Shown piece after piece: positions 1 through 10,023 of a stretch of 10,023 bases of DNA. The stretch spans positions 1-10,023 of the forward strand of contig JAQUXG010000048.1 in NCBI GenBank assembly GCA_028692515.1, given 5' to 3'. Made by a program: the position numbers and the translations under genes. Each line of letters opens with the position of its first letter. Position 1 is the first letter of the stretch. The notes below the pieces were generated by a model, which was not told the DNA's origin, did no database searches, and saw nothing but the letters and a program-made list of their open reading frames with translations. Source of the stretch: Kiritimatiellales bacterium. GTDB taxonomy: Bacteria; Verrucomicrobiota; Kiritimatiellia; Kiritimatiellales; Tichowtungiaceae.

Positions 1-422
1 GATCTTTCGAGGATTTTTTCATCCGCTTCAACAAAGAGACTGACTTCAGAGCCGTTGTCCTGAAGCCGCTTAACCGTTTTTTCCAAGGTTTGGAAATGGC
101 TGATGACGTCGAGTCCGCCTTCGGTGGTGAGTTCCTTCCGTTTTTCGGGGACGAGGCAGATTTCGGCGGGTTTTACTTCGAGCGCGATTTTAACGATTTC
201 TTCGGAGTTGGCCATTTCGAGGTTGATGGGTAGCGGACATTCTTTGGAAAGGCGGTACACGTCGGCGTCCTGAATGTGGCGGCGGTCTTCGCGCAGATGG
301 ACGGTGATGCTGACGGCCCCGGCTCTGGCGCAGATTTTTGCGGCTTCGAGCGGGTCGGGATAGATGGTGCCGCGTGCCTGACGCAGGGTGGCAATGTGGT
401 CGATGTTAACGCCGAGTTTCAT
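1..422 (-). CDS. pdxJ: Pyridoxine 5'-phosphate synthase, N-terminal 140 residues (runs off the window edge)
   Basis: PdxJ joins 1-deoxy-D-xylulose 5-phosphate with 3-amino-2-oxopropyl phosphate to make pyridoxine 5'-phosphate, the last ring-forming step of the DXP-dependent vitamin B6 pathway in the cytoplasm. The frame begins [14 protein letters not shown] and contains the family's signature stretches: NIDH at residues 6-9, ARGT near 16-19, [10 protein letters not shown] at 40-49, NLEM at 67-70 and EGGLDV at 101-106. By family alignment the likely active-site residues are Asn6, Asp8, His9, His42, Arg44, His49 and Glu69. The family is about 240 residues, so roughly the last 100 lie beyond base 1. 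The ATG at 420-422 has an AAAAAGG ribosome site 6 nt upstream, inside the end of the GGDEF gene, which it overlaps by 17 bp; translational coupling is likely. Residues 110-115 read FQTLEK and are encoded by a copy of the recurrent palindrome. The identification is firm. Confidence 0.96.
80..96. repeat. Palindrome copy 1, inside pdxJ
   Basis: Perfect 7-bp arms TTTCCAA and TTGGAAA flank a 3-bp centre GGT (plus strand). On the coding (minus) strand the core is read in frame as Phe-Gln-Thr-Leu-Glu, part of FQTLEK in PdxJ. By eye, the same stretch aligns to E. coli PdxJ without any length change, so the motif sits in normal protein sequence rather than in an insertion. Confidence 0.75.
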
Positions 423-1605
423 GTTCAGCCTTTTTCGCATGTTGCGCCGGATCGTATACGAGGCAGGCGGTTGTGTTCCAGCCGCGGAGGATTTCGAGCG
501 CGCGGTAGGCCCCGCGGAAGAGGTCGCGCAGGTTACGTCCATGTTCCGGATACGCCGCGATGCCGACGCTGACGGAGGATTTGATTCGTTTGCCGTTTGA
601 GACAAACAATTCTTTCTGTACCGCTTCACGCAGGCGGGTGGCGATGAGTTCACCCTGCTGCAGGGTGCCGGGGGCGAGGATCATGAAATCATCGCGGTGG
701 TAGCGGCCGATCAGGTCACAGTTGCGGGTGAGGTTCTGGAGAATTTTACTGACCCCGGCGATGACATCGTCGGCCGCCGGTTCGCCGTGCAACTGAATGA
801 TCTGATCGATGCGGTTGATGCCGACGCAGAGCAGAGTCGCCGGTTGTTTTTTATGACGGATTTCTGCGAGATATTTTCGTATGTATGAACCGATTACTCC
901 GGGGCGGAGAACGCCGGTGAGCGGATCCAGCGCGGCATTTTTATCCTGTTTGCTGAGCTCCCCGAGTTCTTCGGGCGTTTCGGGCGGCGGCTCTTCTGTT
1001 TTTGGAAGAGGGGCGATGCAGAATGGAAGGGGATTTTCAAAACCGGCGCTGTCCAGTGCTTCGTTGGCGGCATCAATAACAGACTGTGTGTTGAGGCCAT
1101 GCGCGGGGAAGCTGCTGACTCCCGCGCGGATGGAGGTTGCGCCGGAGCGGCTTAAAGCCGCTTTCATCTCCGCGGTTATGCGTGAGGCGATTGCAGGCAT
1201 GGTTTCTCCTTCGGTGTCGATGATGGCGGCTACGCAATCGTCGCGGAGAAGGCAGGCTTTATCGGAAGCTTCCCGAATTATGTTTTTGATCTCGGCAAGG
1301 AGTTTTTCCTGCACGGCTCGGAGATTTGGCTCTTCCGTGACGAATTGCAGGATAAGGATGCTGAAGCCGGAGGAGGTGCGGTTGATTTTACTTAAATAGC
1401 GGGTGACCTGAATGAAGAAGAAGTCGTTACAGTCATCAACGGTCTGCAATTCGCTTTCTTCCATCTGAATCATCCGGTGGAATCGGTAGGTACTGCTGAT
1501 CAGAGTAAGGATGGCGAATGAAATACCCGTTACAAGCAACAGCTGCCCGGCTTGTGCCAAGGGCAGCTGCGCAATCCATGTTAGCTGTTGAATGGGACTC
1601 AGCAT
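406..1605 (-). CDS. Membrane-anchored protein with two tandem degenerate GGDEF domains; probable c-di-GMP-binding, non-catalytic
   Basis: This 399-residue protein has one membrane segment near residues 18-40, then two GGDEF-fold regions. The second (about 225-388) opens with LDPLTGVLR, ends with [13 protein letters not shown] (344-356), and has HRDDF (303-307) where GGDEF should be. The usual metal-binding Asp is Gly262 and the substrate Asn-Asp pair is Ile270-Gln271, so cyclase activity is unlikely. The inhibitory I-site RxxD is intact and in register (Arg294, Asp297, six residues before the GGDEF position, as in PleD). The first region (about 79-190) shows the same plan with LRDDC at 120-124 and [10 protein letters not shown] at 161-170, but has Ser114 where the I-site Asp should be. 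A Pro/Glu-rich linker (202-220) joins them. The gene starts 31 bp after pal, where cpoB often sits in other bacteria, and overlaps pdxJ. Inference: a c-di-GMP receptor or scaffold, compared with PelD-type degenerate GGDEF receptors. The ribosome site upstream of the ATG is weak. Confidence 0.8.
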
Positions 1606-1636
1606 GCAGGGGTCGCTTCAGGGGACGCCGCGGCGA

Positions 1637-2149
1637 CTAATAATAAAGCACGAATTCGCCGCGGCGGTTCGCGGACCATGCCGCTTCGTCGTGGCCGGGA
1701 TTGGCCGGCAGTTCTTCGCCGTAGCTCTTGGTCTGAATCCGGTCAGCACCAATACCGAGACCGGCCAGATAGTCGCGGATGGCCTGCGCGCGGCGTTCGC
1801 CGAGAGCCAGATTGTATTCGTTGCTTCCGCGTTCATCGCAGTTGCCTTCGATGATGACGGCGACGGAGTTGTTCTGTTTGAGGTGCAGGGAAACGGCTTC
1901 AATTTTTGAGCGTTCCGTGGACGCCACCTGAGAGCTGTCGTAGTCGAAATAGACCGGAGCGAACATGCCGGGGTGTCCTGTGCCGCCTGTGAAGCGGTCG
2001 CCCATGGCCAGTCCGCCCATGCCGTCACCGTAGAGACCGTCAGAGCCGTAGACACCGGCCGGATTTTTTTTCAGGCTTTTGCAACCGGTGAGGGATGAGA
2101 GAGCCAGTAACAGACACAATCCTGTAACGACGGAGACATTCTTCTTCAT
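1637..2149 (-). CDS. pal: Peptidoglycan-associated lipoprotein Pal
   Basis: Pal is the outer-membrane lipoprotein of the Tol-Pal system; it binds peptidoglycan and TolB and helps draw the outer membrane in at division. The 170-residue protein begins MKKNVSVVTG with a hydrophobic signal and a lipobox LTGC, so Cys23 should be lipidated. A short Gly-rich linker (31-63) leads to an OmpA-like domain (about 64-170) with VYFDYDSS at the start, EGNCDERGSNEYN at 101-113, LGERRAQAI at 117-125 and ANRRGEF at 160-166. Asp105 and Arg120 fall in the stretches that bind diaminopimelate in OmpA-family proteins. The start at 2149 is chosen because the signal peptide begins there and GAGG lies 10 nt upstream; the frame is open to 2218, but that would place 23 charged residues before the signal. 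It follows tolB by 31 bp, in the usual tolB-pal order. Confidence 0.95.
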   Translation of the reverse strand: MKKNVSVVTGLCLLLALSSLTGCKSLKKNPAGVYGSDGLYGDGMGGLAMGDRFTGGTGHPGMFAPVYFDYDSSQVASTERSKIEAVSLHLKQNNSVAVIIEGNCDERGSNEYNLALGERRAQAIRDYLAGLGIGADRIQTKSYGEELPANPGHDEAAWSANRRGEFVLYY

Positions 2150-2180
2150 GATAACGAGACCTCGCTTTTTACATTTCCTG

Positions 2181-3368
2181 TCACGGTGAGCAAGCGGGCG
2201 CATACCAGCTTCCGCCACCGTTGAGTAAAGCTACCGGACGGTCGCTCACCGTGTCAAGGAGGTAGAGGGCCGATTGGTAGCGCACAGAGCGCGCCGCGAC
2301 AATATGCCGTCCATCCGGAGCCCATGACGGATCTTCATAGTCAGCCCCCTCGTTGGCCAGATAAACAGTCTGTCCGCTTGCCGGCTGGATTACCGCGATG
2401 CTGTACCGCCCGCCGGAGCGGCTGGAACAGGCGATCAGGCCGTTCGGCCCCCAGTCCGGGGCGACGTTTTCGGTGCCCTGACGGCTGAGGCGTCTGGGCG
2501 CACCGCCTTCGCGGGCGATGATGTAGAGCTGGGGGGTTCCGCTGGAGTCGGAGACATAGACAATCTGCCGTCCGTCCGGCGACCACGAGGGGCTGGCTTC
2601 AGTGGCGCGGGGCGTTGCGGTCAGGCGGGTCAGTTTTCCGCTACGGATATTTTTGAGGTAGAGCTCGGGGTTCCCGTCTTTTGAAAGAACCAGCGCCAGA
2701 TCTTTACCGTCCGGCGAAATAGAGGCTCCGGTGTTGAGTCCGCCATAGTTCGCCAGCATTTCGCGCCGGTTGCGGGACAGGTTGATCCGGTAAATATCCG
2801 GAAACCCTCTCATAAAAGAGGTATAGACGATGCTGTCGCCGTCCGGACCCCAGTTCGGGCCGACCACGATTCCTTTTTCGCCGGTGAGCTGTCGCAGACC
2901 TCCGCCGTCACTGTCGCACAGATAGAGTTCTTTTGTTCCGGTGCGGTTGCCGACCAGCACGATGCGCATGGAAGCCATCCCTTTTTGACCGGTAACCGCC
3001 TCAACGATATCGTCCGCCATTTGATGAGCGGCGATGCGGGGCTGGCCGGAATAGTTTTTCGAAAGCAGAATGGCCTGATCATTCAGACGGACAACCTGTC
3101 CGCCGGCTTTTACATCGCTACCGGAGGGGGCGGCGGTTCCGTTCACCCGGATCTCGCCGTTATCGCGCATGAGCTCAAACCAGCCGGAGAGTCGCAGATC
3201 TTTTTCCAAGGTTTGGAAAAATGTCTGGGAAGCGGGATCCCCGCCCGCGCGAAGACCGGACAGATCAATGGCAATTTTGCGGTCGGCGGATTTCACCACG
3301 CGGACTTGTGCGGGAGTCAGCTGCGCGGCGAGAAGCGCGCAAAGAAAAAGGGATAGAGAAGTTTTCAT
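2181..3368 (-). CDS. tolB: Tol-Pal system beta-propeller protein TolB
   Basis: TolB is the periplasmic propeller that shuttles between TolA and Pal. The 395-residue protein has a Sec signal peptide (about 1-20, ending TPA), an N-terminal domain (about 21-130, with QVRVVKS in the place of the TolA-binding strand and DLRLSGWFELM at 57-67), then a propeller of WD40-like repeats. Typical repeat cores are NWGPDGDSIVY near 172-182, SISPDGKDLAL near 216-226, SWSPDGRQIVY near 261-271 and SWAPDGRHIVA near 348-358. It is slightly shorter than the 430-residue E. coli protein and ends near PACSP. The start is the ATG at 3368 rather than the one at 3377, because the AAGGA ribosome site overlaps the latter. 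Residues 51-56 are FQTLEK, encoded by the recurrent palindrome. Unusually, a secreted-protein gene separates it from tolA. Confidence 0.95.
   Translation of the reverse strand: MKTSLSLFLCALLAAQLTPAQVRVVKSADRKIAIDLSGLRAGGDPASQTFFQTLEKDLRLSGWFELMRDNGEIRVNGTAAPSGSDVKAGGQVVRLNDQAILLSKNYSGQPRIAAHQMADDIVEAVTGQKGMASMRIVLVGNRTGTKELYLCDSDGGGLRQLTGEKGIVVGPNWGPDGDSIVYTSFMRGFPDIYRINLSRNRREMLANYGGLNTGASISPDGKDLALVLSKDGNPELYLKNIRSGKLTRLTATPRATEASPSWSPDGRQIVYVSDSSGTPQLYIIAREGGAPRRLSRQGTENVAPDWGPNGLIACSSRSGGRYSIAVIQPASGQTVYLANEGADYEDPSWAPDGRHIVAARSVRYQSALYLLDTVSDRPVALLNGGGSWYAPACSP
3201..3221. repeat. Palindrome copy 2, inside tolB
   Basis: This is the longest perfect copy: 9-bp arms TTTTTCCAA and TTGGAAAAA around the centre GGT (plus strand). 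On the coding strand the core reads in frame as Phe-Gln-Thr-Leu-Glu (TolB residues 51-55), the same peptide and the same reading frame as in pdxJ more than 3 kb away. Confidence 0.8.
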
Positions 3369-3376
3369 GACACCCA

Positions 3377-3381
3377 TCCTT
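3377..3381 (-). promoter_or_regulatory. Ribosome binding site that sets the tolB start
   Basis: AAGGA on the minus strand lies 8 nt before the ATG at 3366-3368. It overlaps the other in-frame ATG at 3375-3377, so that upstream ATG cannot use it. This supports the shorter TolB, which also begins directly with a normal signal peptide. Confidence 0.65.
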
Positions 3382-3432
3382 AACGGAATCCCCCGATAGA
3401 GGAAAGTGGATTCTTAAACGAACCCGTCGGCG

Positions 3433-4932
3433 CTATTTGTGTACGCGAATCTGATAAAATCCGGCGGCTTCCGTAGTTCGTACGGTGTTTGTGTCTTCGA
3501 AGTCGCTATCTGGAATATCCGGATAAATCAGCGTAAGGCCGGAAATCAGATTGGTGGTCCAGTAGATGTCGTATTGCCGTCCGGGCTGGCGGATCCAGCT
3601 GAAGCGGCGGGCACCCCGCCGGTCAAGACTGAGCCGGGCGTTGGCATCGGCGGGATTCAGCCCGGCGATGTAGGCCTCCAGATTTGACATTCCGTTGGAT
3701 GCGATTCCGTCGCTGGCGGCGTTTGTGATGCCGCCGAAATAGCGCTGCTCCCACCAGTCAGGGATGCCGTTTTTGTTAAAGTCGATATCTCCGGTGACAG
3801 ATGGCTGCTCTTCATCAGAGACATTAATCTGATCCATATATCCGTTTCCCGAGACCGAGCAAGATCTAGCCAGCCGACTGTTCGAAGAAAGGCGCAATCC
3901 GGAAGCAACGTTCGTGCCATTGACGCTTATACACCAATCCATATTTTCATAATCGCAGTACACATCAAAGCGAGTCCACGTGTTCGTTGGTATTTGAGTA
4001 TTCAGCACAATGGGGATGCTATTGCTGTAAACTACCAAATGTTGGGCGGTGTCAATGAGGAACGCAAAGTTGACATTTGTATCGATTTGAACCGGGATCG
4101 CGGATTGAGCACCAGAACAAAATACTTGAAATTGGGCCCACTCATCGGAACCATTCGCTGATAAAAGGTCATGGGAGACTTGAGCATTCTGAAGATGCAG
4201 AGCCTGCGAGCCGCTTTTAACGACATCAGACTGAACGATTGCATCTCCGCTTTTCACAACCCACCCGTTCTGTCCGTTAATGGAACCGGGTGCTATATGA
4301 TTTGTAGGTTCAAACGTTTCTAGAAAAGGAAGCGCAGCGGCGTTTTTGTCTATAACACTTACGCTGTCAATATAGGCTGGCTCCAAACTATCGCTGGCAA
4401 TCTTTAACGATTTAATCTGTTGTGCGGCGGAAAAGAACCCGATGTTGTTTGCCGCATTTGTCCCATTGACATTCAAACTCCATTTTTGGGTGTCGTAATT
4501 GCAATAAATATCGAAACGAGTCCAGGCATCGAGAAGAATTTGTTCAGAAAGCACGACCGGATTGGTGCCATCCCAGACCACCAGGTACCGATTGGTGTTG
4601 ATGAAAAAGGCGGCACTGGCATTGACGGGCATCACTGGATCGGTATCCGGAGCGGCAGTGATGCGGGCCTGAAAGCTGACCCAGACAGAAGTTCCGGTGC
4701 TTGACAGGGAATGAGAAACTTGCGAGTTCTGGATTTTAAGAGCCTGCGAACTATTGGTCGCGACGACACTTGATTGAACGGTGGCGTTGGTTCCGTTATC
4801 CAGAACCCAACCATTTTGGTTATTAATGGATACATTGTTGGTGAGCCCATCAAACGTTTCCGTAAACGGAAGTGTTGATGCGGAGACACTCATCGCTGTT
4901 AGTGCCAACCCGAAGCAGAACTTCTTTTTCAT
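3433..4932 (-). CDS. Secreted protein with two tandem lectin-like modules and a Ca-binding-type linker, inserted in the tol operon
   Basis: The protein has 499 residues and I do not recognise a named family for the whole. It begins with a signal peptide (MKKKFCFGLALTAMSVSAS). Two copies of one module follow, at about 21-195 and 201-373; shared landmarks are LPF.ETF, NGQNGWV or NNQNGWV, SQAL..QN.QVSH, W.RFD.YC.Y and VNGTN. The layout suggests a concanavalin/LamG-like beta-sandwich that may bind glycans. Residues 383-428 hold DFNKNGIPDWWE and SNGMSNLEAYIAGLNP, resembling the Asp/Asn-rich calcium-binding segments near the C-termini of secreted Verrucomicrobiota-type proteins. The tail (about 430-499) ends in GFYQIRVHK with no obvious anchor. 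It sits 19 bp after tolA and 64 bp before tolB, with no clear ribosome site. Base composition is visibly less GC-rich than the tol genes (27 of 60 bases G or C at 4381-4440, against 43 of 60 at 6301-6360), which suggests later acquisition. Its function is unknown. Confidence 0.8.
   Translation of the reverse strand: MKKKFCFGLALTAMSVSASTLPFTETFDGLTNNVSINNQNGWVLDNGTNATVQSSVVATNSSQALKIQNSQVSHSLSSTGTSVWVSFQARITAAPDTDPVMPVNASAAFFINTNRYLVVWDGTNPVVLSEQILLDAWTRFDIYCNYDTQKWSLNVNGTNAANNIGFFSAAQQIKSLKIASDSLEPAYIDSVSVIDKNAAALPFLETFEPTNHIAPGSINGQNGWVVKSGDAIVQSDVVKSGSQALHLQNAQVSHDLLSANGSDEWAQFQVFCSGAQSAIPVQIDTNVNFAFLIDTAQHLVVYSNSIPIVLNTQIPTNTWTRFDVYCDYENMDWCISVNGTNVASGLRLSSNSRLARSCSVSGNGYMDQINVSDEEQPSVTGDIDFNKNGIPDWWEQRYFGGITNAASDGIASNGMSNLEAYIAGLNPADANARLSLDRRGARRFSWIRQPGRQYDIYWTTNLISGLTLIYPDIPDSDFEDTNTVRTTEAAGFYQIRVHK
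3814..4332 (-). repeat. Second copy of the duplicated lectin-like module (residues 201-373)
   Basis: This stretch repeats the layout of the preceding module at a 180-residue offset. LPFLETFEP, NGQNGWVV, SQALHLQNAQVSH, TWTRFDVYCDYE and SVNGTNVASG match the corresponding segments of copy one. The copies have diverged and are best seen at the protein level, so the duplication is not recent. Confidence 0.75.
4348..4872 (-). repeat. First copy of the duplicated lectin-like module (residues 21-195)
   Basis: The module runs from LPFTETFDG through NNQNGWVL, SQALKIQNSQVSH, AWTRFDIYCNYD and NVNGTNAANN to the strand AYIDSVSVID. The second copy ends with the equivalent GYMDQINVSD. Confidence 0.75.
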
Positions 4933-4951
4933 AAAAGTCGTTTATACGGGT

Positions 4952-5725
4952 TTATTGAGATAAAACGAACTCAATCTCAATGTCTCGGCTGGGCAAGTCG
5001 GCGGGCGGCGCGGGCAGGCGGGTGGTCGCGGCCAGTGCGTCTTGAACCGACTGATCAAATTCCGGATTTCCCGAGCGGCGGGTAATGGACTTAGAGGAAA
5101 CGGTTCCATCGCGCTCCACCCGGATGGTGGCTTCGGCGGTGATTCCTTTTGGTGCGCCTGCCGGCTGCTGCCACGCCTGAACCATTTTTTGCTGAACCTG
5201 AGCGTAATACCCGGCAAACGGACTGTAAACCCCGTTGCCGGAGCCGCTTCCATAACTGGAGCTTGTGCCGGACGATGCACTGTTGAGGGCGGATTTAAGC
5301 CCGCTGTAATCCAGTGCCGGTTTTGCTGGAGCCGCCGGTCTGATCGTTTTTCCACCCTTGCGGACTTCGGCCAACCGTTCTTCCAGAGTTTTTGGTTTCG
5401 CCGCCGGTTTGGGTTCGGGTTTCTTCGGTTCAACCTTCTTTGGCTCTTCTTTTTTGGGTTCGGGCTTTTTGGCTTCCACCTTTTTGGGCGGGGCGTTGGT
5501 TTTTGGCGGCTCCGGAACCGGTTTGGGTTTCGGTGCCGGTGCCGGCGGCTCCGGTTCGGGAATCGACTCAGCAGGAGCCGGGGGCGCGAGGGCGAAGGTG
5601 AAGACGATGGGCTTGGGTTTTGGATGAAAGCAACCCTTGATCCACGGGATGAACAGCAGCAGGAACAGCACGCCCAGATGCGTGCCGAATACCCGTTTCA
5701 GGACTGTTTTTCGCAACTCATTCAA
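4952..5725 (-). CDS. tolA: TolA/TonB-type trans-periplasmic energy transducer
   Basis: TolA spans the periplasm from the TolQ-TolR motor to TolB and Pal. The 257-residue protein has a basic N-terminus, one membrane segment (about 16-29), a long Pro/Lys/Glu-rich rod (about 35-112) built of EPKK and KPEP units, a Ser/Gly-rich hinge (about 145-168), and a C-terminal TonB/TolA domain (about 169-257) with YYAQVQQKMVQAW, ATIRVERDGTV and FDQSVQDALAA. The rod looks more like TonB than the helical Ala/Lys-rich rod of E. coli TolA; the tolA name comes from its position after tolQR and before tolB-pal. The start appears to be TTG at 5723-5725, 6 nt after tolR, with GGGGA about 10 nt upstream. The nearby ATG at 5719-5721 is in another frame; a second in-frame TTG lies at 5716. 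Confidence 0.85.
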   Translation of the reverse strand: MNELRKTVLKRVFGTHLGVLFLLLFIPWIKGCFHPKPKPIVFTFALAPPAPAESIPEPEPPAPAPKPKPVPEPPKTNAPPKKVEAKKPEPKKEEPKKVEPKKPEPKPAAKPKTLEERLAEVRKGGKTIRPAAPAKPALDYSGLKSALNSASSGTSSSYGSGSGNGVYSPFAGYYAQVQQKMVQAWQQPAGAPKGITAEATIRVERDGTVSSKSITRRSGNPEFDQSVQDALAATTRLPAPPADLPSRDIEIEFVLSQ

Positions 5726-5731
5726 ACCAGA

Positions 5732-6139
5732 TTATTCCCCGGCTGTGACCAGCCCCATTCGTTCAACCTTGGCGTCCTTTAAGAGGCCGACCACTTCGGC
5801 GACCCGTCCGTAATTCACCGAAACATCCGAGCTCAGATAAACGGTCGCCGCCGGATTGTTGTCGATCGTCAGCTTGATCTCCTGCGCCAGCTCCTCTTTA
5901 GAGACGGGTTGGCTGTCGAGAAAGAGATTCCCGCCGGCATCAATCGTGATGCTGCGGCTGTCCTTGCTGTCTTTCAGCTCACCCTTGCCGGTCGGCAGTT
6001 TTACGGAGATTCCCTGCTCAATCATCGGAAAGGTGATGATGAAAGTAATCAGCAGAATAAAGGTCAAATCCATCATCGGCGTCAGGTTAATGTCGCTGAC
6101 TTCCCGGATGGCGATCAGGCTGGTTTTTCTTTTTCTCAT
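5732..6139 (-). CDS. tolR: TolR/ExbD-family proton-channel subunit
   Basis: TolR works with TolQ to convert proton flow into movement of TolA. The protein has 135 residues, close to the family norm of about 140: a short basic cytoplasmic tail, one membrane helix (about 17-40) and a periplasmic ExbD fold. The signature INLTPMMDLTFILLITFII carries Asp24, which matches the essential membrane Asp (Asp23 in E. coli TolR). The end of the periplasmic domain (YGRVAEVVGLLKDAKVERMGLVT) also fits the family. Its ATG overlaps the tolQ stop as ATGA, a sign of coupled translation. ExbD is the alternative name, but the tolB and pal genes downstream favour TolR. Confidence 0.93.
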   Translation of the reverse strand: MRKRKTSLIAIREVSDINLTPMMDLTFILLITFIITFPMIEQGISVKLPTGKGELKDSKDSRSITIDAGGNLFLDSQPVSKEELAQEIKLTIDNNPAATVYLSSDVSVNYGRVAEVVGLLKDAKVERMGLVTAGE

Positions 6140-6891
6140 GGCGATTCACTCAGCGTGCTGAACTGTTTCTGAACGTCGGCGGCGAACTCCTGCGAAAAAT
6201 TATCCATTTGCACCGCCAGCCGCCGGATGCGGGTGGTGAGCATGTTGTAGCCGATGGAGGAGGGCAGTGCCACCAGCAGGCCGACCACCGTTGTGAGCAG
6301 AGCTCCTGCGATTCCCGGGGCGACGGCCGAGAGCATGGCGGTTCCGGCGGCACCCATTGCGCCGAACGCTTCCATCACGCCCCAGACGGTTCCCAGCAGT
6401 CCGAGAAACGGGCCGGTGCTCACGGCAGTGGCCAGCAGCCCCATCAGACTTTCCAGATTCAGCGCGGCATCAGCCAGCGTGCAGTCCACCACGGTACGGA
6501 TGTTTTCCAGCTGGTGCGGCGCGAGCCGCCGCTGACCCGGCGGATACGTGCCGCCCAGTAAAATCTCGTTTTTATCGACGCCGATCTGCACCAGCTCATC
6601 AATCAGGGTTTTACAGCCGGCTTCATAGAGCCGGTTGAGCGGGGTCTCCGGCATGCGCTGCTTTTTTACAAACAGATTGGTCGGGCGGGTCTGTTCGCGG
6701 TAGGCGCGCAGGAAGCGATCCGAATCGATCCGCGCGCGGCGCAGCTCCATAAATTTGGTGACCATCGCGGTCCATGCAAAAATCGAGATGGCGAAGAGCG
6801 CGATGACAATAATTTTCCCCGACGTGGTGCTTTGCGCGAACGAGGCGGAAATGGAGCCGAGCGAGAGAAGTGGAAGCAGTAGACCATTCAT
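6136..6891 (-). CDS. tolQ: TolQ/ExbB/MotA-family proton-channel protein
   Basis: TolQ is the inner-membrane motor protein that forms a channel with TolR and energises TolA. The 251-residue protein has three membrane segments (about 25-43, 150-172 and 191-215) with the large cytoplasmic loop between the first two. The family hallmarks are present: TGPFLGLLGTVWGVMEAF at 159-176 and APGIAGALLTTVVGLLVALPS at 191-211. It is the first gene of the minus-strand block; GGAG lies 10 nt before the ATG, and the palindrome array lies just upstream. It overlaps tolR by 4 bp. A short insertion-like loop (about 66-125, with many Pro and Gly) sits in the cytoplasmic region. Confidence 0.93.
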   Translation of the reverse strand: MNGLLLPLLSLGSISASFAQSTTSGKIIVIALFAISIFAWTAMVTKFMELRRARIDSDRFLRAYREQTRPTNLFVKKQRMPETPLNRLYEAGCKTLIDELVQIGVDKNEILLGGTYPPGQRRLAPHQLENIRTVVDCTLADAALNLESLMGLLATAVSTGPFLGLLGTVWGVMEAFGAMGAAGTAMLSAVAPGIAGALLTTVVGLLVALPSSIGYNMLTTRIRRLAVQMDNFSQEFAADVQKQFSTLSESP

Positions 6892-6906: not shown

Positions 6907-6925
6907 TTTTCCAATGTTTGGAAAA
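6907..6925. repeat. Palindrome copy 3 (tolQ-proximal)
   Basis: Perfect 8-bp arms TTTTCCAA and TTGGAAAA flank the centre TGT (plus strand). It lies immediately upstream of the tolQ ribosome site, so it would sit in or next to the tolQ leader. Confidence 0.8.
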
Positions 6926-6937
6926 AGTTGCCTCGTA

Positions 6938-6956
6938 TTCTCCAAGGTTTGGAAAA
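6938..6956. repeat. Palindrome copy 4 (middle of the array)
   Basis: Core TCCAA, centre GGT and TTGGA are kept; the left arm has one mismatch at 6940 (C where T is expected). Its centre is 31 bp from copy 3. Confidence 0.75.
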
Positions 6957-6969
6957 ACAGTACAGTTTT

Positions 6970-6988
6970 TTTTCCAATGTTCGGAAAA
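6970..6988. repeat. Palindrome copy 5 (hydrolase-proximal)
   Basis: Arms TTTTCCAA and TCGGAAAA with centre TGT; a single mismatch (C at 6982) breaks the symmetry. Its centre is 32 bp from copy 4 and it ends 18 bp before the hydrolase ATG. Confidence 0.75.
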
Positions 6989-7006
6989 TCCTCTATGCTC
7001 CGCCTC

Positions 7007-8158
7007 ATGAAAAAACTCTCTCCGGCCTTTCTTCTGCTGTTGCTTGCACTTCTTTTAACCGGCGGCGCGCAGGTACATTTGCCGGAGGTGCGCGCGATCT
7101 GGGTGACCCGCTTTGACTTTAAAACGGCGGCGGATGTGGAGGCGATTGTCGCCAACTGCGCGCGCGCCGGGTTTACGGATATCTTTTTTCAGATTCGCGG
7201 TAACGGAACCGTATCCTATGCCAGTCAGGCGGAGCCGTGGGCGTTTGAGCTGAGCGGCGCCGATGTGGCTTTTACGGGCCGGAATCCCGGCTGGGATCCC
7301 CTGAAAGTTGCAGCGACGGCGGCCAAAAAACGGGGGATTCGTCTGCATGCCTATATGAATGTGCTGCCCGGCTGGCGGGGCGTGAAAGAACCGCCGCGTG
7401 CGGCGGGGCAGCTGTGGACGGCGCACCCGGACTGGTTCATGGTGGATTCATTAGGCCGGCGGATGCGCCCGACCGGCGGATGGTATTCGTTCCTGAATCC
7501 GGCACTTTCGGATGTCCGGCAGCATCTGACGCAACTGGTTGCCGAGCTGGCGCGGTACGATATCGCGGGGCTTCATTTGGATTACATCCGCTTCCCGTAC
7601 GACTACAAAGATGTGGCGCGCGAGATTTATCCCAAGGCGTCGGCGGAAGAGATCAAACGCCGATCCGATTTTTCCTATGACCGTTTTTCAATGACGCAGG
7701 TTCGTGCGAACTGGACGGGCGACTGGGGGGCATTCCGCCGCTCTTCGGTTTCGCAGGTGGTGGCGGATTTGAATAAAACCTTCAAAGCGAAGCGCGGGCC
7801 GCAGTGCGTGGTTTCTTCCAGCGTACTGGCCGATTTTGACACGGGATACGGAACGGCCTTTCAGGACAGCCGCCGTTGGGCGAAAGACCGGCTGGTCGAT
7901 TGGCTGGTGCCGATGAATTATAATGCCGGTCTTTTTGATGCGCGACTGGCCAAAATGCGCAAGTCGCTGGGTCGCCGCGCGACCGGGGAACAGCTTGTGG
8001 TGGGGATTGATTGTAAAGCCGCTCCGGCGGAAATCCGCCGACAGATCGATGCGGCGCGCAAGGAGGGCTGCCGCGGCTACGCGCTGTTCGCCTATTCCTA
8101 TCTCTTCGAAAATCACCAGCCGTCGGCTAAAGGGCGAGCGTTGAGCGGGCTGCAATAG
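7007..8158 (+). CDS. Exported GHL10-family glycoside hydrolase, DigH (YddW)-like
   Basis: Glycosyl-hydrolase-like 10 proteins (the former DUF187 group) have a TIM-barrel fold. The E. coli member DigH cleaves glycan strands stripped of peptides at the division site. The 383-residue protein starts MKKLSPAFLLLLLALLLTGG, a Sec signal with likely cleavage after GGA (21); it has no lipobox Cys, unlike lipoprotein DigH. The barrel runs from VRAIWVTRFDF (28-38) through GFTDIFFQIRGNG (55-67), GIRLHAYMNVLPGW (110-123), HPDWFMVD (140-147), the hallmark GLHLDYIRFPYDY (188-200, with candidate catalytic Asp192) and DWLVPMNYN (298-306) to YALFAYSYLF (358-367). The ATG at 7007 is preferred for the signal peptide; ATG 6995 (four residues longer) is possible. 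The frame stays open back to 6755, but that part is antisense to tolQ and the palindromes. It is transcribed divergently from the tol block and ends at a strong terminator. Confidence 0.88.
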   Translation: MKKLSPAFLLLLLALLLTGGAQVHLPEVRAIWVTRFDFKTAADVEAIVANCARAGFTDIFFQIRGNGTVSYASQAEPWAFELSGADVAFTGRNPGWDPLKVAATAAKKRGIRLHAYMNVLPGWRGVKEPPRAAGQLWTAHPDWFMVDSLGRRMRPTGGWYSFLNPALSDVRQHLTQLVAELARYDIAGLHLDYIRFPYDYKDVAREIYPKASAEEIKRRSDFSYDRFSMTQVRANWTGDWGAFRRSSVSQVVADLNKTFKAKRGPQCVVSSSVLADFDTGYGTAFQDSRRWAKDRLVDWLVPMNYNAGLFDARLAKMRKSLGRRATGEQLVVGIDCKAAPAEIRRQIDAARKEGCRGYALFAYSYLFENHQPSAKGRALSGLQ

Positions 8159-8224: not shown

Positions 8225-10023
8225 CTACTTCAATTGAGTTGGCATTTCTAGGTCCTGTGTGGATTGAAGAACCGGCTTTTCGACCGGCTTTTTCTGCTCT
8301 TTTAGCTTCTGTTGTTCCACCGTGGCTTTATCCGCTTTGTAGAATTTGTTGAGCTGATCGGCGGCTTCCTGTGCCTTGCCCTCGTCGCCTTTTAACCGGT
8401 AGGCCTGAAAGAGCGCAATCCAAACCCGATCGCTGCGCGGCGTGATCTTAACCGCCTTTTCCATATATTCGAGGCCTTGGGTTATCTGCTTCTGCATGAT
8501 CATACTCTGGCCGAGACCCAGCCAGGCTCCGGCCATGCCGGGACTGTTTTTGGTGAGGGCGCTAAAGACGGCTTCGGCTTCCTGCGGGCGGTTGAGGGAC
8601 AAGTAAAGACCGCCTGCACCGATCAGTCGCGACGGGTTGCCCGCTTTGACGAATCCCTTGCTCTGCTCAAGATAGTCGTGCCGTTCTTTTTCCAGAACGG
8701 CGATGCCGTACTTCTGAATGGCAGGATCCTTGATGAGCGTTGCATACTCCGGCAGGTCGCGTACGAGAATAACGGTTGCGCCGTCAAAGTAGACCAGTTT
8801 CCAGACTCTGGAACCAATCAGACGGGTGGCCAGTGCTCCGGCATTCGGCCAGCATCCGTTGAGAACGACTGCGTGCGGGTTCTGTTCTGTTAAAATCGTT
8901 TTCCACGCATCGGGCTGGCCGAGGAGCGCGCCGTTGAGCGTCTGGTAAAAGGCGGGCCCGTAGAATGAGGTGCGGGTATCACAGAACACCTTCCGGCCGG
9001 GGGTCTGCAAAGCAATATATCCACCGTCGTGCGGGGTGTTCAGAATTTTTTTCGGAAAGTCTGCGCGGCTGAGAATGCCGGCTGCGGCAACCGGGAAGGC
9101 ACCTTCTTCGGTACCCAGCCCGAAGCGCGAAGCGCTGCCAAGGTTGATATAGGCACGGTTGGTGATCAACGAACCGGCCGACAGGATCATCAGAACCAGT
9201 GTGATGACGGTCATCGCCTTGTGCAGTGTTGAATTGCTGGTTTTAAACACCATGGTCAACGTGCGGGTCAGATAGTCACTGACGGCATTAAAGCTCAGAA
9301 CCATGAACGGGAATGCGAGAAAAGAGAACAGATGGGTCATGCCGGGGGAGATGACGGAAAGCACCGCGCCCGTCAGAGCCAGCAGTGTAATCATGGTAGG
9401 GAGTTTTTTCTGGAGTGTAATCAGTCCGCCTGCGCCCAGCAGCAGTGCAAAACGGGTTAAATTATTAAAGAAAGCCTGAGGGAAGAAGCTGCTGAACAGC
9501 GAAATCCATTCGAGGTTTTCTTTTCCCATCAGTACGAGCCAGTTGGCGAAAACATGCCGGTGAAGATTGATCAGATTCGGATTGATCAATGTAACCAGCA
9601 GAGCGACTGCGGAGAGACCGAAGAGCTTGGTGGTCAGCGGAGTCACCATGGCAGTGCGAGAGGCGTTGCGGGTTTCCTGCCAGTTTTCAAACGCGAAGAA
9701 GAGGATCAGCAACGGGCCGAACAGAAACGAGGGGTGCATGTTGGTCCAAAGAACCTGCAACGGGAGCAGAAGGATGGCCAGCAGGTTGAAGTTTTTAACA
9801 CGATAAAGCAGGGTCAGAAAGAGAGCGGTGAAAAGCATAAAAAATGCTCCCGGACCGGGATTGAATACCGGAAGAAGCAGCCGGGCGCAGAGCAACAGAG
9901 CCAGTCCCTGACTCAGCGAGCCGCCCCATTTTCTGCCGAAATTAAGCATTAAGACAAAGGCGGCTGTAACGGCCAGTACATGAACCAGAGTAACCAGTCC
10001 TGCGCCGCCGAGTGACCAGAGCA
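8225..10023 (-). CDS. Multi-pass membrane protein with periplasmic-type domain and C-terminal TPRs (5' end beyond the window)
   Basis: The frame is open through the right edge: codons upstream of the ATG at 9949 read WSLGGAGLVTLVHVLAV, another hydrophobic stretch, so that ATG is internal. Numbering from it, hydrophobic segments fill about 11-270, with the motifs LWTNMHPSFLFG (67-78) and LINPNLINLH (121-130). These look like the WxNxH and NP motifs of large glycosyltransferase-like membrane proteins found in Acidobacteria and Planctomycetes. A soluble domain follows (about 280-400) with LNTPHDGGYIALQTPGRKVF and CDTRTSFYG. Two or three TPR-like helices pairs lie at about 437-540, then a Lys/Glu/Gln-rich tail. 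I do not recognise a named gene. Its role may be envelope polysaccharide or glycan transfer, but that is only inferred from family resemblance. It ends at TAG 8225-8227, just after the shared terminator. Confidence 0.75.
   Translation of the reverse strand, partial: LWSLGGAGLVTLVHVLAVTAAFVLMLNFGRKWGGSLSQGLALLLCARLLLPVFNPGPGAFFMLFTALFLTLLYRVKNFNLLAILLLPLQVLWTNMHPSFLFGPLLILFFAFENWQETRNASRTAMVTPLTTKLFGLSAVALLVTLINPNLINLHRHVFANWLVLMGKENLEWISLFSSFFPQAFFNNLTRFALLLGAGGLITLQKKLPTMITLLALTGAVLSVISPGMTHLFSFLAFPFMVLSFNAVSDYLTRTLTMVFKTSNSTLHKAMTVITLVLMILSAGSLITNRAYINLGSASRFGLGTEEGAFPVAAAGILSRADFPKKILNTPHDGGYIALQTPGRKVFCDTRTSFYGPAFYQTLNGALLGQPDAWKTILTEQNPHAVVLNGCWPNAGALATRLIGSRVWKLVYFDGATVILVRDLPEYATLIKDPAIQKYGIAVLEKERHDYLEQSKGFVKAGNPSRLIGAGGLYLSLNRPQEAEAVFSALTKNSPGMAGAWLGLGQSMIMQKQITQGLEYMEKAVKITPRSDRVWIALFQAYRLKGDEGKAQEAADQLNKFYKADKATVEQQKLKEQKKPVEKPVLQSTQDLEMPTQLK

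Follow-up and report, generated by a model that had tools for sequence, protein, structure and literature searches.

The palindrome that recurs in pdxJ and tolB of this Kiritimatiellales bacterium belongs to a set of genome-wide sites that is strongly enriched, strict in its anatomy, phased with the DNA helix and conserved at the DNA level, and its 31/32-bp pairs are confined to one class of the phylum. With a probability of roughly 0.55, these palindromes are the sites of a dimeric protein that binds co-operatively along one helix face and is probably a sequence-specific nucleoid protein. The protein, its dimeric state and its co-operativity are what we infer, and the nucleoid role is the part of which we are least sure.

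Sites in the window

According to a sequence-only reading of the window (the whole stretch of DNA analysed, 10,023 nucleotides), one palindrome lies within 80–96 and 3201–3221 and encodes FQTLEK in two genes. Both statements hold. TTCCAAGGTTTGGAA occurs exactly at 81–95 in pdxJ (pyridoxine 5'-phosphate synthase; 3..422, minus strand, 3' end beyond the window) and at 3204–3218 near the 5' end of tolB (2181..3377, minus strand), and the minus strand of both copies reads TTC CAA ACC TTG GAA and then AAA, which encodes FQTLEK (residues 110–115 of PdxJ and 54–59 of TolB). The full sites, to which no strand is assigned, span 79..97 (core TTCCAA-GGT-TTGGAA; PWM score 28.5) and 3202..3220 (score 30.7). 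Beyond the two noted copies, the window contains three more in a divergent spacer (6909–6986): 6907..6925 (core 6909–6923, exact; score 31.1), 6938..6956 (core 6940–6954, one arm mismatch, 31 bp from the previous site; score 24.0), and 6970..6988 (core 6972–6986, one arm mismatch, 32 bp further; score 25.9), again unstranded.

This array adjoins the start codon of a minus-strand gene at 6136..6891, which we take, by eye and from family features, to be of the tolQ/exbB type. Downstream of the array lies the divergent plus-strand gene 6995..8158, whose start is uncertain (predicted at 6995, with an in-frame ATG at 7007); its relative in genome G003 likewise faces an array and stands beside a tolQ-like gene. 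A possible weak, unstranded site in the last gene (8797..8815, core TTCCAG-ACT-CTGGAA at 8799–8813; score 16.9) may represent a further copy, its change being symmetric across both arms. At up to three mismatches, with the palindrome counted on both strands, the window has 9 matches vs 0.68 expected, and 0 of 200 shuffled windows reach this number.

Abundance and anatomy

The suggestion of a genome-wide short signal that persists in genes is borne out by 609 exact genome sites of TTCCAANNNTTGGAA (TTCCAA-N3-TTGGAA), coding copies included. The count of the nucleotide core is far above chance level: the reversed control yields 0, and by calculation a motif with 12 fixed bases is expected ~0.1 times in a genome of 1.81 Mb. 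TTCCAANGTTTGGAA has 324 exact copies in the genome (reversed control 0).

The spacer is strictly 3 bp, with 102 such sites in a sample of the bacterium's own genome (G000) vs 0–1 for any other spacer length between 0 and 8, and 178 in the relative G009, again vs 0–1 for the other lengths. The G000 sample consists of the window and 20 contigs picked for having listed sites (283 kb, 102 exact sites; 0.36 sites/kb vs 0.34/kb in the whole genome), and the G009 sample of 60 evenly spaced 20-kb stretches, i.e., 1.2 of 3.88 Mb (genome length 3,882,676 bp; G+C content of the sample 53.0%). The consensus is TTTTCCAA-NSN-TTGGAAAA, a conserved element of 16–19 bp, and nothing is conserved past ~2 nt on either side. 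Exact, one-mismatch, and two-mismatch copies number 102, 37, and 27 in the G000 sample (control palindrome 0, 7, and 13), and 178, 210, and 175 in G009 (control 0, 6, and 62). Symmetric complementary changes are carried by 7/27 two-mismatch copies in G000 (control 0/13) and 10/175 in G009 (control 2/62). In 100 kb each of the site-poor G007 and G053 and of G023 and G024, no other dense palindrome exceeds 5 copies; the top alternative in G023, TTTCCA-N5-TGGAAA, is this palindrome again with its centre less constrained. The G000 count from the same scan also includes runs of N.

Gene-position counts rest on a simple codon-based gene predictor written for the analysis. More than half of the sites fall in predicted coding DNA, the adjoining genes are of many kinds, and site density is highest in convergent spacers. 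Within 9 nt past a stop codon lie 16 of 60 sites in G000 (6.8 expected) and 22 of 121 in G009 (10.3 expected). No origin, terminus, or replication-strand bias is visible in the 60 stretches of G009. The pdxJ and tolB copies do share a frame, which is, however, only partly special: the FQxLE frame and the other two hold 31, 16, and 8 of the 55 coding sites in the 283 kb of G000, and 53, 39, and 30 of the 122 in the 1.2 Mb of G009.

Helical phasing and arrays

Neighbouring sites tend to be separated by whole helical turns (22, 31/32, 42, 52/53, and 63 bp), in coding DNA too. The 10.5-bp phasing of neighbours reaches R 0.83 in G000 (n = 42) and 0.82 in G009 (n = 83), and that of coding–coding pairs 0.90 (n = 15) and 0.88 (n = 38), respectively. 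Permuted-arm controls (up to 3 mismatches for similar site numbers; a mean of 18 pairs per draw over 31 draws, a few of them repeats) have a mean R of 0.24 and a maximum of 0.62, the latter from 9 pairs. Rayleigh p values for the phasing are too small, as every pair enters them twice, once from either end. Weak sites are also phased, with offsets of 22, 31, 32, 41, 42, and 53 bp enriched ~6–24 fold vs 0–3 fold for all other offsets between 20 and 60 bp.

The 387 phylum genomes scanned together contain 2118 exact pairs at 31/32 bp vs 7 at 26/27 bp. Of the 131 genomes of the class, 37 have pairs at 31/32 bp, as do 0 of the 256 others, according to a class tally counted by hand. G057 has an array of 11 sites, and the longest array has a mean step of 31.4 bp. 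Spacers resemble one another within some G057 arrays, so tandem duplication helped there. Phasing is weak in family f2 (R 0.43, n = 75; 0 of 20,000 random draws as high), where the test covers 75 of 98 close pairs: 26 of 43 from G018, 0 of 6 from G024, and all from the other four genomes. Within this family, phasing is not seen in G018 (R 0.23, n = 26) despite its 1177 sites.

In G050, G054, G056, G280, and G301, the few 31/32 pairs adjoin toxin–antitoxin, restriction, or RhuM-like genes (named by eye), a setting suggestive of lateral transfer; in G007, G008, G014, and G017 they adjoin housekeeping genes. Neither beside arrays nor beside the pairs of the nine genomes with one or two is there a recurring DNA-binding regulator that could be an autoregulated binder gene. 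Phased arrays are also present in three IMG/VR viral contigs. Two viral contigs have in common an HTH_17-like small ORF (identity 23%; at E values of 0.2 and 0.017, the Pfam matches fall below the cut-off).

Conservation in pdxJ and tolB

The sequence-only reading had described an intergenic-type element accommodated by the proteins. A DNA signal within genes it is, but nothing was inserted: neither site shows a length change vs relatives, and, as had been judged by eye, PdxJ aligns with E. coli PdxJ (1ho1) without a gap across FQTLEK. Insertion of a mobile repeat is refuted for both copies by these gap-free alignments.

Relatives with fewer sites have genes of equal length and often a similar peptide, written with different synonymous letters. 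Thus, FQTLE of TolB reads TTC CAG ACG CTG GAA in G012 and TTT CAA ACC CTG GAA in G005 (115 and 62 genome sites, respectively). The peptide, whose presence in relatives without the repeat elsewhere had been named as a refutation of that reading, does occur in these site-poorer genomes, but the nucleotide motif is absent there. In site-rich relatives at most one arm letter differs, and the 3-bp centre falls in a codon that varies (T, A, or P in PdxJ). Since the arms are kept while the centre codon varies, and poorer relatives use other synonyms, it is the DNA and not the peptide that is conserved; peptide-level conservation was set aside on these grounds.

Arm letters track genome-wide site density, with Spearman coefficients, kinship ignored, of 0.84 for pdxJ (n = 13) and 0.88 for tolB (n = 12); TolB of G010 and G011 and PdxJ of G002 are left out, their alignments not covering the site. 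Genomes of the same genus differ about tenfold in density, and a rich/poor division at 120 sites/Mb switches at least five times on the TolB tree. G004/G007 is the only pair of sisters with unlike density that has firm support, and G013, G008, G000, G002, and G012 form one supported clade without a resolved internal order; in both cases the arms match better in the richer genome.

Proposed explanation and its rivals

Each TTTTCCAA-NSN-TTGGAAAA palindrome would be the site of one putative homodimeric DNA-binding protein, and dimers at adjacent sites would touch along one helix face to build nucleoprotein arrays, the preferred steps being two, three, four, or more full turns of the helix (three in most genomes). 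Exact sites number ~340 per Mb in G000, are dispersed, and lie beside all sorts of genes, which argues against a single-pathway regulator and makes a sequence-specific nucleoid (chromosome-organising) protein the most likely candidate; it may also tune transcription. The pdxJ and tolB sites would have arisen via base substitution, largely synonymous, in codons whose peptide was close to F-Q-x-L-E beforehand, and would be maintained at the DNA level.

The strongest rival, although rather unlikely, is that one Lrp/AsnC-type global transcription factor uses the sites as its operators. It may be the only Lrp/AsnC protein present in most genomes, and would wrap DNA at clustered inverted repeats on one face and have amino-acid genes among its targets. 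In PMC2995911, Lrp-family sites are described as dimer-bound inverted repeats of 13–17 bp that are grouped on one face of the helix at centre-to-centre distances of two or three turns, and the geometry of our short inverted repeats agrees with this. All 22 relatives (out of 58) whose exact sites exceed 88 have a PF01037 protein, and 5 of the 7 site-rich genus members surveyed have sites with at most one mismatch 38–123 bp ahead of the lrp start (38–41 bp in four). Sites also directly precede lysA (name by eye) in G009, L336, L347, and G017, the only 31/32 pair of G017 being that one, and the array of G056 lies ~190 bp before a dapL-like gene. The distribution, however, fits poorly. PF01037 is found in 52 of the 58 relatives, rich and poor alike, and four of the six without it have 25–88 sites (G027 65, G032 88, G041 25, and G042 39, with 4 in G029 and 0 in G043; all but G043 are 59–89% complete). 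Among 29 loci surveyed upstream of lrp, 28 have an lrp match (not G045); sites precede lrp in 5 of these 28 genomes, all five in the genus, and the 21 genomes besides the seven site-rich genus members (12 of these 21 with ≥75 sites) have none within 400 bp before it. The orthologue looks alike in rich and poor genomes (by eye, first 75 residues), the lysA/lrp pattern is post hoc, with G009, L336, and L347 apparently closely related, and the predominance of coding sites and the dense convergent spacers are likewise at odds with operators. The link between the sites and an Lrp protein is at most suggestive. E. coli Lrp itself is ranked among nucleoid proteins, so this rival can merge with the nucleoid-protein explanation.

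DNA uptake sequences, the parallel preferred by the sequence-only reading, are a less probable answer. A competence receptor would prefer DNA with the palindrome, and biased uptake with recombination would spread it, coding DNA and gene ends included. This suits the hundreds of near-perfect coding and non-coding copies, their enrichment just past stop codons and in convergent spacers, the varying density among close relatives, the fall from exact to mismatched copies (sharp in G000, less so in G009), and ComEC in 54 of 58 relatives. ComEC, however, is present in site-poor genomes too and does not discriminate between rich and poor; helix-phased neighbours, three-turn arrays, and the phased viral-contig arrays favour instead a DNA-binding protein assembling along DNA. 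To our knowledge, known uptake sequences show neither helical phasing nor three-turn arrays. A hairpin formed in the transcript at gene ends, as a terminator or as a signal for stability or processing, is hard to credit: the perfect palindrome with a 3-nt centre, the stop-codon and convergent-spacer enrichment, and symmetric changes above control would fit, but 20/27 and 165/175 two-mismatch copies are uncompensated, a two-fold symmetric protein site would favour symmetric changes as well, many sites lie inside coding sequence, and 10.4–10.5-bp phasing is a property of B-DNA, not RNA. Still less plausible is the target of an orphan DNA methyltransferase, as for HIP1 of cyanobacteria, which occurs in coding and intergenic DNA. 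PMC4390886 describes HIP1 as a high-frequency palindrome with species-dependent density, and our highly iterated palindrome varies among species in the same way; such a target leaves the phasing, the arrays, and the 16–19-bp conserved element unexplained. A mobile or duplicated REP/MITE-like repeat inserted at many places would account for the many copies and for tandem duplication in some G057 arrays, and is next to incredible given the lack of a conserved body or flank, the unchanged lengths of pdxJ and tolB, and differing spacers at mixed 31/32-bp steps.

Several points count against the nucleoid-protein explanation: no binding protein was found, stop-codon enrichment is not predicted by a nucleoid role in itself, the tenfold density spread within one genus is odd for an essential chromosome organiser, phasing is weak in f2 and not seen in G018, and the recurrent sites before lysA and lrp hint at a metabolism regulator.

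A tentative extension of the nucleoid-protein explanation, less probable than the explanation itself, is that many class members carry a sequence-encoded chromosome scaffold of hundreds to more than 1000 near-perfect sites for one dimeric protein. Sites would keep helix register through coding and non-coding DNA, with dimers on one face for up to ~400 bp, and genes would have been rewritten at synonymous positions to hold that register. If so, the genome sequence itself records the positions and helical register of a chromosome-wide binder, which it ordinarily takes ChIP or footprinting to reveal, and makes them readable and comparable over dozens of genomes that gained or lost sites: a natural experiment on the constraints that such a protein places on coding sequence.

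Comparison with known systems

We know of no described bacterial system with such a helix-registered scaffold, and the element was not found among the open-licence PMC matches listed for the motif, Kiritimatiellota palindromic repeats, phased nucleoid sites, and uptake or iterated palindromes. REP/BIME elements are also palindromic units near stop codons, sometimes arrayed; here, however, no body is conserved beyond 19 bp and coding copies came without insertion. Neisseria DUS and Pasteurellaceae USS share the hundreds of near-perfect copies, many in genes and many at gene ends, but are asymmetric and not known to be helix-phased or to form tandem three-turn arrays. The sites of MatP (matS), ParB (parS), Noc, SlmA, and Fis are likewise palindromic, dimer-bound, and dispersed over the chromosome; they number in the tens or are degenerate, mostly with origin or terminus bias, whereas ours number in the hundreds, are near-perfect and phased, and have no visible bias in the G009 stretches. 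HIP1, which is tied to methyltransferases, is an 8-mer without a gap; the element described here is a gapped 15–19-mer and has phased neighbours. Lrp/AsnC operators such as those of Ss-LrpB and FL11 are, according to PMC2995911, also inverted repeats clustered on one face at two or three turns. The sites reported here, however, are near-perfect rather than degenerate, occur 609 times per 1.8 Mb, and lie for more than half in predicted coding DNA.

Number and structure of the palindromic site

The palindrome that the sequence-only reading had picked out, a gapped inverted repeat with two 6-nt arms, is real, and the finding is larger than first noted. The window (contig C144 of a 1.81 Mb assembly, 86% complete) carries the exact 15-mer TTCCAAGGTTTGGAA at 81-95, inside pdxJ, and at 3204-3218, inside tolB. 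Three further palindromes (6909-6923, 6940-6954, and 6972-6986) follow one another in steps of 31 and 32 bp in the spacer of divergent genes. A weak match at 8799-8813, changed symmetrically in the two arms, may be another copy. According to counts across the source genome, the nucleotide core occurs as 324 exact copies of TTCCAANGTTTGGAA, and a broader core as 609 exact copies of TTCCAANNNTTGGAA, versus 0 for the reversed pattern in both cases, which bears out the suggestion of a genome-wide signal.

In 283 kb of the source genome (20 contigs picked for having sites, plus the window) and 1.2 Mb of G009, a relative assembled as a single contig (60 even 20-kb stretches), the site has the form TTTTCCAA-NSN-TTGGAAAA. 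Only a spacer of 3 is used (102 and 178 sites, respectively), each of the other lengths between 0 and 8 having 0-1 sites. The central base of the spacer is G or C in all source-genome sites and in 94% of those of G009, KGT being the commonest centre (59 of 102 and 89 of 178). As for the flanks, A/T is preferred at two further bases per side, with no conservation beyond. Copies with 0, 1, and 2 mismatches number 102, 37, and 27 in the source genome (control palindrome: 0, 7, and 13) and 178, 210, and 175 in G009 (control: 0, 6, and 62).

Location of sites on the chromosome

Relative to genes from a simple codon-based prediction, exact sites fall within coding DNA less often than its fraction would suggest: 55 of 102 against 90 expected in the source genome, and 122 of 178 against 157 in G009. 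Coding sites occupy every frame in both orientations, led by the FQxLE frame (31 of 55 and 53 of 122). Between genes, the density per kb is 3.2 in convergent, 2.1 in co-directional, and 2.0 in divergent spacers of the source genome (1.4, 1.0, and 0.9 in G009). Sites within 9 nt of a stop codon number 16 of 60 against 6.8 expected, and 22 of 121 against 10.3, respectively, while those within 9 nt of a start number 3 against 3.9 and 2 against 6.9. Across the 60 stretches of 20 kb from G009, which average 3.0 exact sites each (variance/mean 1.6), there is no obvious bias relative to origin, terminus, or strand.

Genes adjoining sites are of many kinds. In three genomes, pheS (named by eye) is closely preceded by 2-3 sites (L188:2493-2579, L190:4833-4869, and L284:2406-2483), and three array neighbours resemble, by eye, integron-integrase-like tyrosine recombinases (L034:14407-14632, L036:8009-8963, and L119:18661-19999). 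The minus-strand gene order in window 1-6891, with names partly by eye, is tolQ-tolR-tolA/TonB-like, LamG-like, tolB, pal, GGDEF-like, and pdxJ; an array also adjoins a tolQ-like gene (named by eye) in the relative G003.

Conservation in pdxJ and tolB

The products of pdxJ and tolB were identified through matches to solved structures, and both minus strands read TTC CAA ACC TTG GAA AAA in the same frame, as had been claimed. The expected gain without length change also holds: the orthologues read have no gap inside the site, the TolB of G003 having one gap 7 codons upstream of it. Among the seven covered genomes with >140 sites per Mb, all 12 arm letters are present in 6 of 7 PdxJ and 5 of 7 TolB genes, and the rest have 11 (G004 in both genes, G009 in TolB); poorer genomes match 7-11 letters in six PdxJ and 9-10 in five TolB genes. 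The denser the sites in a genome, the better the arms match (Spearman 0.88, n = 12, for TolB; 0.84, n = 13, for PdxJ). The codon over the centre differs among rich genomes (T, A, or P in PdxJ), which is the opposite of peptide constraint. Judging from these alignments, what is kept at both genes is the DNA, not the peptide. The pdxJ match of G004 (G004:C1:4153-4569, L087) contains an in-frame TAG.

Dividing the genomes into rich and poor at 120 sites per Mb requires 7 changes on the TolB tree, of which at least 5 are forced by well-supported branches, though the two labels show some clustering (a number this low arises in 28 of 500 shuffles). Another site, ~960 bp downstream of lrp, is common to seven site-rich genus members.

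Helical phasing

Distances between neighbouring sites (at most 1 arm mismatch, at most 200 bp apart) peak at 22, 31/32, 42, 52/53, 63, 74, and 84 bp. For a period of 10.5 bp, the phasing strength R reaches 0.83 (n = 42) among source-genome pairs and 0.82 (n = 83) among those of G009, with phase near zero, and the best periods for distances <160 bp are 10.40 and 10.45 bp, respectively. Coding-coding pairs are also phased (0.90, n = 15, and 0.88, n = 38), which neither insertion nor codon periodicity would produce. Pairs of G009 that lie 260-400 bp apart are still phased (R 0.65, n = 19; 0 of 2000 random draws as high), and phasing is not seen at 400 bp or more; source-genome pairs beyond 110 bp are too few for phasing. 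Degenerate copies near strong sites keep the same register, offsets of 22, 31, 32, 41, 42, and 53 being enriched ~6-24 fold versus 0-3 fold for the remaining distances of 20-60 bp.

Permuted-arm palindromes (up to 3 mismatches tolerated, 342 sites on average) give a mean R of 0.24 over 31 draws, the maximum of 0.62 coming with 9 pairs. The cleanest control is provided by 387 genomes, with 2118 exact pairs at 31/32 bp against 7 at 26/27 bp. The longest array has 11 sites with a mean step of 31.4 bp, in G057; spacers are alike within some arrays of this genome, so tandem duplication contributed to those arrays.

Distribution among genomes and viruses

At least one arms-only match is present in 51 of 58 relatives (range 0 to 1339). 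Of the genomes scanned, 37 of 131 from the same class have pairs at 31/32 bp, versus 0 of 256 from the phylum's other classes. At least 116 stretches of GTDB contigs match the pair pattern, and the 80 matches listed come from MAGs named Kiritimatiellae or similar, Lentisphaerae, Verrucomicrobia, or 'bacterium', along with one 'Spartobacteria' and one 'Firmicutes' bin. Phasing is not uniform: G018 alone shows none (R 0.23, n = 26), and its family f2 reaches R 0.43 over 75 close pairs read. G018 and G019 each have >1100 exact sites but few close pairs, and phasing is weak or absent; the density of sites is thus a trait separable from the building of arrays.

Three IMG/VR contigs also bear 31/32-bp pairs (L354/L355 from IMGVR_UViG_3300035698_006241, L356, and L357), with phased pairs or arrays in spacers or, in L356, inside a gene. 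The first has terminase and portal genes in half L355 and a phage-transposase match in half L354. In several single-pair genomes the pair lies beside genes resembling, by eye, toxin-antitoxin, restriction, or RhuM-like genes (G050:C392:4000, G054:C28:1332, G056:C30:29423, G280:C126:18107, and G301:C27:2241). Such pairs look like DNA from site-rich donors, and arrays may trace lateral transfer.

Candidate binding protein

B-DNA phasing, a two-fold site with a fixed 3-bp centre, in-register weak sites, and arrays together suggest a dimeric DNA-binding protein whose neighbours would be in contact along the DNA. The most likely candidate is a sequence-specific nucleoid protein, with a probability of roughly 55%. 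An uptake sequence, to which the sequence-only reading likened the palindrome, is possible: density and position of the sites fit it, but the helical phasing does not. ComEC does not tell site-rich from site-poor genomes. One ComEC match (G053:C1:1409676-1410500) has three in-frame TAG codons and may be a pseudogene or subject to read-through. No published description of the palindromic element was found in the excerpts of the literature searched.

A global Lrp-type regulator ranks second and is rather improbable, although the recount of sites before lysA and lrp raised its odds and lowered those of the nucleoid protein. A single PF01037 protein is present in all 22 relatives with >88 sites, and the start of its gene, lrp, is preceded by sites at 38-123 bp in 5 of the 7 members of the genus. 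They also directly precede lysA (named by eye) in four loci (L117:2902-2999, L336:4891-4968, L347:6960-7037, and L382:1500-1545), the last being the sole 31/32-bp pair of G017; this is a lead towards a lysine or Lrp-type regulator. Among 21 other genomes, however, none has a site within 400 bp before lrp, although 12 have at least 75 sites, and the orthologue looks similar in rich and poor genomes. Moreover, G027, G032, G041, and G042 (59-89% complete) lack a PF01037 match yet have 65, 88, 25, and 39 sites. According to a review, Lrp-type regulators bind 13-17 bp inverted repeats that are clustered along a single face of the helix at distances of two or three turns, and wrap DNA (PMC2995911). 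The palindrome shares inverted repeats, clusters, and helix-face phasing with the sites described there, and by this analogy may act in the manner of Lrp-family binding.
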